A DNA stretch of 64,000 nucleotides. It comes from Deltaproteobacteria bacterium (GTDB lineage: Bacteria > JAGRBM01 > JAHCIT01). The stretch covers positions 124,001 through 188,000 of the forward strand of contig JAHCIT010000004.1 of the NCBI GenBank assembly GCA_026129095.1, read 5' to 3'. Shown one piece after another: positions 5,108-53,884 of the stretch (position 1 is the stretch's first letter; every line of letters starts with the position of its first letter). The notes under the pieces were generated by a model, which saw only the letters and a program-made list of their open reading frames with translations, was not told the origin of the DNA and did no database searches. The translations under genes were made by a program, and so were the position numbers.

Positions 5108-5145
5108 CCTCACCCCCTGCCCCCTCTCCGGGAACCGGAGAGGGG
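5108..5145. repeat. Dispersed hairpin repeat, copy A
   Basis: The unit begins with CCTCACCCCC and forms an 11-bp perfect hairpin (CCCCTCTCCGG, loop GAA, CCGGAGAGGGG at 5121-5145). The same core recurs at 5150-5207, 39911-39949 and 47761-47898, always between genes. Confidence 0.75.
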
Positions 5146-5149
5146 AAAA

Positions 5150-5207
5150 CCACACCCCCTTAATCCCCCTCTCCGCAGTCGCGGAGAGGGGGATTAAGGG
5201 GGTGTGG
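5150..5207. repeat. Perfect 27-bp inverted repeat (dispersed hairpin repeat, copy B)
   Basis: Bases 5150-5176 are the exact reverse complement of 5181-5207, with the loop AGTC between. The core of the arm is CCCCCTCTCCGC, shared with the copy at 39911-39938, which has the same AGTC loop. It lies between the ends of convergent genes and could act as a bidirectional terminator or a mobile REP-like element. Confidence 0.85.
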
Positions 5208-47760: not shown

Positions 47761-47803
47761 CCTCACCCCCTGCCCCCCTCTCCGGGAACCGGAGAGGGGG
47801 GAC
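47761..47803. repeat. Dispersed hairpin repeat, copy D
   Basis: CCTCACCCCC leads into a hairpin with arms CCCCCTCTCCGG and CCGGAGAGGGGG and loop GAA. The core is the same as in copy A at 5108-5145. Confidence 0.75.
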
Positions 47804-47849
47804 TGCGTGAGCAGCCGGGGGAGTGGTTGATGAGAGAGAACCCTTCCTG

Positions 47850-47898
47850 CCCTCTCCAGTTCCTGGAGAGGGCCGCGCCGCAAAGGCGCGGGGTGAGG
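47850..47898. repeat. Dispersed hairpin repeat, copy E (double hairpin)
   Basis: The first hairpin has arms CCCTCTCCAG and CTGGAGAGGG and loop TTC. The second has arms CCGCGCC and GGCGCGG and loop GCAAA. The flank GGTGAGG closes the unit. It is a degenerate member of the family at 5108 and 39911. Confidence 0.65.
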
Positions 47899-52782: not shown

Positions 52783-52859
52783 TGGTGCCCCCGGCAAGAG
52801 TCGAACTTGCGACCTTGGCCTTAGGAAGGCCCTGCTCTATCCAACTGAGCTACGGGGGC
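52783..52859 (-). tRNA. tRNA-Arg (CCU)
   Basis: A 77-base tRNA with the CCA end encoded. The acceptor stem GCCCCCG pairs with CGGGGGC, the D arm GCTC/GAGC is intact, and the T arm GCAAG/CTTGC with loop TTCGACT is intact. The anticodon loop is TTCCTAA, giving anticodon CCU (Arg, AGG codons). The outermost anticodon-stem pair would be G27-A43, a mismatch; the other four pairs are sound. Confidence 0.95.
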
Positions 52860-52925
52860 GAAAGCTGGCAGGGGCGGCAAACAGAGGCTCCGCCCGGCAT
52901 TCGCGGCCTGGCGGAGCCTGTGTTG

Positions 52926-52967
52926 AGGAAAACCCCAGGTTCCGGCCGCCAGAGGACGGCCGGAACC
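52926..52967 (-). terminator. Rho-independent terminator after the histone gene
   Basis: A perfect 11-bp stem (GGTTCCGGCCG and CGGCCGGAACC, 8-base loop) is followed on the minus strand by TGGGGTTTTCC. It lies 15 bases past the histone stop and separates the gene from the tRNA. Confidence 0.75.
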
Positions 52968-52981
52968 GGATCAGGCCGCGA

Positions 52982-53173
52982 TCAGATATCGCGGGCCTTC
53001 ACTGTGGCACGGTTCGAGGCCTTGGCCCGCTCGACGGCCTTGGCGACCAGGCGCTCCACCTCGGCGCTGATTGCCGGGATGGCTTCGGCCGAGCACTGCA
53101 TCTTCTTGCTCTTGACCAGTTCCTTGATCTTCGACTGAACCACGTAAATTTCCTTGGACTTGTTGTTGCTCAT
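52982..53173 (-). CDS. Bacterial histone (Bd0055-like single histone fold)
   Basis: A 63-residue protein that is a single histone fold. The first helix is in SKIKELVKSKKMQCSAEAI (continuing after it), the long central helix is IPAISAEVERLVAKAVERAK, and the last helix region ends TVKARDI. KSK-M-SAEAI and VERAK-TVKxxDI closely follow the pattern of Bdellovibrio Bd0055, a DNA-coating bacterial histone. There are many Lys and Arg residues for DNA contacts and no tail. It should form dimers on DNA. The start at 53173 has GGAGGGAG 8 bases upstream; the longer frame has no family resemblance. A strong hairpin terminator follows the stop, and a possible promoter lies about 110 bases upstream, so it is probably monocistronic. 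Confidence 0.85.
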   Translation of the reverse strand: MSNNKSKEIYVVQSKIKELVKSKKMQCSAEAIPAISAEVERLVAKAVERAKASNRATVKARDI

Positions 53174-53347: not shown

Positions 53348-53884
53348 TCAGTACTGGACCACCGAGGCCACACGGCAGGGTGAAAGGCGTTCACGTCCCT
53401 TAAGAAACTCCAGTTCCACCAGTACCGACAGCCCGGCCACATGCCCCCGGCACTCCTCGACCAGCTTGAGGACGGCCCCGGCGGTGCCCCCGGTGGCCAG
53501 GAGATCGTCCACGATCAGGACGTGGGCGCCCTCGGCAACCGCATCTGTATGAATTTGCAACGTATCCTCGCCGTACTCCAGGGCATAGGAGACGGTCTTC
53601 GTGCGCCAGGGGAGCTTGCCGCTCTTTCGCACCGGGACAAACCCGGCGTGCAGGTAGCTGGCGATGGCGCTGCCGAAGATGAACCCCCGCGCCTCGATGC
53701 CAAGCACCACGTCTATCCGTTCCACCTCGAACGGCTGGGCCATCAGCGTGATGGCGCTTTTCAGCAGCCTGGGATCGTGCAGGACCGGCGTGATGTCCTT
53801 GAACAGGATCCCCGGCTTGGGGAAATCCGGCACATCGCGGATGGCCTTGCGGATGGCAGCAACGGAAGCGGTCGTGGTGGTCAT
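53348..53884 (-). CDS. apt: Adenine phosphoribosyltransferase
   Basis: Salvages adenine to AMP with PRPP; 178 residues, normal length. The N-terminal block [21 protein letters not shown] is diagnostic of Apt. The PRPP-binding loop is [19 protein letters not shown], and [14 protein letters not shown] together with KSGKLPW is the flexible loop and purine region. It is cytoplasmic. It lies upstream of the histone gene on the same strand with 170 bases between. argC is 85 bases upstream of it. Confidence 0.96.

Follow-up and report, generated by a model that had tools for sequence, protein, structure and literature searches.

Histones are DNA-packaging proteins that were long believed to be missing from bacteria. 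To our knowledge, only two bacterial histones have been characterised in depth, HBb (Bd0055) of Bdellovibrio bacteriovorus and HLp of Leptospira perolatii, and they differ in their DNA binding. Alpha3 histones have a shortened alpha2 and an alpha3 of 3 to 4 residues, and 83% of them belong to the face-to-face (FtF) histones, whose tetramer has the shape of a torus and is joined by an Arg/Asn pair absent from bacterial dimer histones; tails are reported for most bacterial FtF histones, and the crystal structure of the archaeal HTkC of Thermococcus kodakarensis is an FtF tetramer (PMC11390915). HLp relies on R49, N53 and R55, and the length of DNA that it wraps is about 60 bp (PMC12701072). For the HBb dimer, both an end-on coating of straight DNA (PMC10627809) and a bending of DNA (PMC11317129) have been described.

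In the window, that is, the whole stretch of 64,000 nucleotides that we analysed, the initial annotation had placed a bacterial histone gene, and the open reading frame is found at that position with the following surroundings:

52982..53173, minus strand: histone gene (P0001), alpha3-type, 63 aa, one histone fold with about 8 residues N-terminal of the fold
53187-53180, minus strand: Shine-Dalgarno sequence GGAGGGAG, 6 nt before the P0001 ATG
53348..53884, minus strand: apt-like gene (adenine phosphoribosyltransferase, named from sequence), upstream of the histone gene, position kept in G001
52783..52859, minus strand: tRNA-Arg (CCT), downstream of the histone gene, position kept in G001
52938..52967, minus strand: hairpin 1, perfect 11-bp stem after the histone stop, then TGGGGTTTT; possible non-canonical terminator
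52885..52919, minus strand: hairpin 2, perfect 10-bp stem, no T-run

The frame runs from the ATG at 53173 to the stop at 52982-52984, and its translation is a 63-residue protein (MSNNKSKEIYVVQSKIKELVKSKKMQCSAEAIPAISAEVERLVAKAVERAKASNRATVKARDI) with a computed pI of 9.9 and a mass of 6.9 kDa. In phmmer searches against PDB sequences, HBb/Bd0055 was the best match (8cmp, E = 2.4e-10; 8fvx, 3.9e-10), and HTkC (9f2c, 1.4e-7) and HLp (9qt0, 3.3e-6) were also found; a profile built from ten relatives strengthened all three matches to 4e-15 or better and, with weaker E values, also picked up histones of archaea and eukaryotes. Judged from its sequence, P0001 is a bacterial histone of the alpha3 superfamily, and the gene is real, a chance frame being excluded by these PDB matches and by G001, where a 59% identical homologue occupies the equivalent place in the gene order. 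Pfam and NCBIfam scans gave sub-cut-off matches only, and profile annotation would therefore miss such a gene. A match to Groucho/TLE (E = 0.014) was taken for a weak similarity between helices and discarded. No second histone was found in the genome of P0001 by single-sequence and profile searches.

The AlphaFold2 model of the single chain, with an input alignment of four rows, has a pLDDT of 86 and comprises alpha1 (2-22), alpha2 (28-52) and an alpha3 of one turn (60-62), in agreement with the earlier proposal of one complete histone fold; its short alpha2 and one-turn alpha3 correspond to alpha3-histone anatomy. All nine best Foldseek PDB neighbours were HBb, HTkC or HLp chains, with probabilities of 0.98-1.00, E values of about 0.01-0.08 and TM scores of 0.55-0.57, a loose overlay that is expected when one chain of an obligate dimer is modelled by itself. 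The fold assignment is supported mainly by the sequence and less by the structure overlay. The alpha3-superfamily motif RxTxxxxD, which holds the RD clamp and the L2 threonine, is present as R55-A-T57-V-K-A-R-D62. Two other histone classes were considered and rejected: an archaeal nucleosomal histone, with a long alpha2 and a 10-residue alpha3, since P0001 ends after one alpha3 turn, and a DUF1931 pseudodimeric histone, with two folds per chain, since P0001 has 63 aa, a single fold and no Pfam match above cut-off.

The order apt-like gene, histone, tRNA-Arg (CCT) recurs in G001, which belongs to another family within the same order and is the only other genome of the phylum in the searched collection; the apt-like genes are 59% identical. 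The histone gene therefore looks ancestral in the phylum. The intergenic DNA between apt and the histone showed no visible conservation with G001. Another profile match in G001 (L047, E = 8e-4) was discarded, as it falls within a different type of open frame, 353 residues long. Three HU/IHF-family genes were found in each of the two genomes, so that P0001 is not the sole nucleoid protein of its host.

Regarding expression, the strong ribosome site noticed earlier is confirmed, and most relatives likewise have GGAGG or AGGAG ahead of the start. The codon adaptation of P0001 reaches 0.76, compared with 0.58 +/- 0.07 under the null (p = 0.007), the null being the same protein with background codons and the reference three ribosomal-protein genes, with statistics based on eight window genes named from sequence. 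This codon usage at the level of ribosomal proteins supports high expression, which, as the initial annotation had assumed, is probable. Its terminator fared less well: hairpin 1 does fold better than shuffled sequences (z = -3.4; both hairpins together, z = -6.1), but it is followed by just TTTT starting five bases past the stem instead of a proper T-run, and it was passed over by the intrinsic-terminator scan. Termination at the two hairpins is possible, with no canonical T-run. The suggested monocistronic expression through an own terminator finds no firm support, given this missing T-run and the co-directional tRNA downstream. The gap between apt and the histone yielded no sigma-70-like promoter, and the candidate terminator after apt folded no better than shuffles (z = -0.05).

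Elsewhere in the window, positions 5121-5206 and 47773-47873 carry GGAGAGGG hairpins that resemble each other (CCCCTCTCCGGGAACCGGAGAGGGG and its variants); the stem of one of them is perfect over 20 bp, and they look like a dispersed intergenic repeat.

The residues that distinguish FtF tetramers from dimers can be read directly, as P0001 shares the numbering of HLp, in which the dimer-dimer residues R48/N52 of the published HMM become R49/N53. P0001 has the FtF arginine (Arg49) and lacks the asparagine, position 53 being Ser; against the lack of an Arg/Asn pair that marks bacterial dimers, it thus has the Arg without the Asn. Its loop L1 has a length of 12, not the 13 of HBb relatives, and its loop motif is RAT, not RKT. 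Among 69 aligned rows, L1 length was 12 in 44 and 10 in 4, and all 48 of these short-L1 rows carry R49 and 46 of them N53, the exceptions being P0001 and L004; among the 19 rows with length 13, R49 is absent in 17 and N53 in all. HTkC, with an L1 of 14, has R49 and Glu53 in the alignment. As HTkC tetramerises with Glu at this position, Asn53 is not indispensable and is better regarded as strongly preferred than as strictly required. The closest homologues, L010 (64%) and L002 (59%), have both R49 and N53. In this alignment, the FtF and dimer types of bacterial histones are told apart almost perfectly by L1 length (12 or less versus 13), which, by our own observation, may be a simple classifier.

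In a 36-row tree, 12 HBb-side rows were split from 24 others, P0001 among the latter, with support of 95/82; in a 68-row tree, 19 dimer rows formed a clade at 100/98 with P0001 outside. Forcing P0001 into the dimer clade cost 5.5 and 10.6 log units, respectively, and was not rejected (p-AU 0.39 and 0.25), these trees having about 60 columns, too few to resolve deep splits. With the loop and signature columns removed, P0001 had no firm placement and HBb was among the nearest rows. Hence, the FtF assignment leans on the signature characters, since trees without those columns give no resolution.

Our analysis yielded the gene, its family, fold elements, signature residues, conserved neighbourhood and codon bias; assembly, DNA-binding mode and abundance of this real alpha3 histone we infer by comparison with HLp. 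We consider it reasonably probable that P0001 is of the FtF type and forms a tetramer wrapping DNA. Points against this are Ser at position 53, the higher identity to HBb than to HLp, the AU test, the nearness of HBb once the signature columns are removed, the loose overlay of the monomer model, and the short N-terminus, in contrast to the tails reported for most bacterial FtF histones. In the proposed model, P0001 chains would pair into a histone-fold dimer, and two dimers would close into a tetramer via the alpha2 ends, loop L2 and the short alpha3, with Arg49 and the Arg55-Asp62 clamp at the contact. The alpha1 lysines K15, K17 and K21, together with S28 and T57 of loops L1/L2, could hold the phosphate backbone irrespective of sequence, each tetramer would wrap about 60 bp of DNA, and P0001 would be an abundant nucleoid protein alongside HU/IHF.

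The initial annotation had instead assigned P0001 to the pattern of Bd0055, which stands insofar as HBb is a relative and the best PDB match in sequence and fold, and is doubtful insofar as the short L1 and Arg49, absent from nearly all dimer-type rows, are FtF features. A protein of this kind would stay dimeric and bend or coat DNA. It could count on the ARDI ending common to P0001 and HBb, on the missing Asn53 and on the AU test, but it is at odds with the full R49/N53 pair in L010 and L002, with the RAT motif and with the trees, in which the dimer clade excludes P0001, and we regard it as unlikely. The end-on coating carried over from Bd0055 is not upheld either, because Arg49 and L1 length side with FtF, and because bending has been published as a second model for HBb itself. 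P0001 is likely FtF-like rather than Bd0055-like, its FtF membership not being settled, and the identity to the nearest PDB entry may indicate the wrong assembly.

The loss of Asn53 could also be taken at face value: P0001 would be a natural intermediate between FtF and HBb-type histones, with the FtF loop and Arg49 kept, remaining a dimer in solution and, as a consequence of the change to Ser, closing into the tetramer only when bound to DNA or highly concentrated. The rarity of this loss among short-loop rows (2/48) argues for such an effect, as does the ability of Ser to hydrogen-bond and a possible compensation by the adjoining N54; tetramerisation of HTkC with Glu at position 53 argues against it, and we find this conditional tetramer improbable. 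If true, P0001 could shed light on the transition between bacterial histones that wrap DNA and those that do not. Less credible still is a histone-fold protein with no general packaging role, such as a local regulator or a low-level protein. The three HU/IHF genes already in the genome and the weak expression of some prokaryotic histones, e.g., ZZ histones (PMC11390915), would fit it, but the ribosomal-protein-like codon use, the strong ribosome site, the basic pI and the single histone copy kept in both phylum genomes examined speak against it. The wrapping FtF-type tetramer is the reading that we retain.

P0001 adds a phylum represented by two genomes, with a histone at one conserved locus in both, and a protein that keeps one tetramer residue (Arg49) without the other (Asn53); current Pfam and NCBIfam models overlook genes of this sort. 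Histone matches occurred in 35/386 sampled bacterial genomes, mostly of different families, and in 39/46 genomes of the phylum of L010, both well above the published 1-2% of bacterial genomes, a lead only as the sampling differs. A protein on L011, a contig labelled archaeon, shows 52-54% identity and has R49/N53, in keeping with an occurrence of FtF histones in bacteria and archaea alike; HU/IHF gave no match in its genome. Several genomes (G030, G059, G133, G177, and G312) have two or three different histones each, the pair in G030 consisting of L008, FtF-type with N53, and L004, with R49, Ala53 and Lys55. Moreover, single-fold histones that carry the FtF pair R49/N53, and mostly RxTxxxxD too, are encoded on five IMG/VR contigs:

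L048:5001-5171, IMG/VR histone, amid ParB-like and thymidylate kinase genes
L049:5001-5165, IMG/VR histone, amid phage-type DnaB helicase, DNA polymerase, UvsX and ligase genes
L050:5001-5162, IMG/VR histone
L051:3164-3322, IMG/VR histone
L052:942-1097, IMG/VR histone

The 'phage histones' described previously lack the RxTxxxxD motif and have an extra helical domain (PMC11390915).

Three known systems are closest to P0001. The bacterial FtF histone HLp (PDB 9QT0-9QT2) likewise has 63 aa and the same L1 length, and shares Arg49, the Arg55-Asp62 clamp, the SK motif and lysines 15/17/21, whereas overall identity is 30% of 63 positions and its Asn53, Thr56 and Phe63 are replaced by Ser, Ala and Ile; its host is reported to lack HU, while the genome of P0001 has three HU/IHF genes. 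The archaeal FtF histone HTkC (PDB 9F2C), about 49% identical over 55 positions, has Arg49 and lacks Asn53 as P0001 does, but differs by an L1 two residues longer, the RKT motif and its archaeal origin. The bacterial dimer histone HBb (PDB 8CMP, 8FVX) is 52% identical over 58 positions and shares the alpha3 fold, the SK motif and ARDI in the short alpha3; unlike P0001, it has one extra L1 residue, Ser49, Asp53 and the RKT motif, and is a strict dimer.
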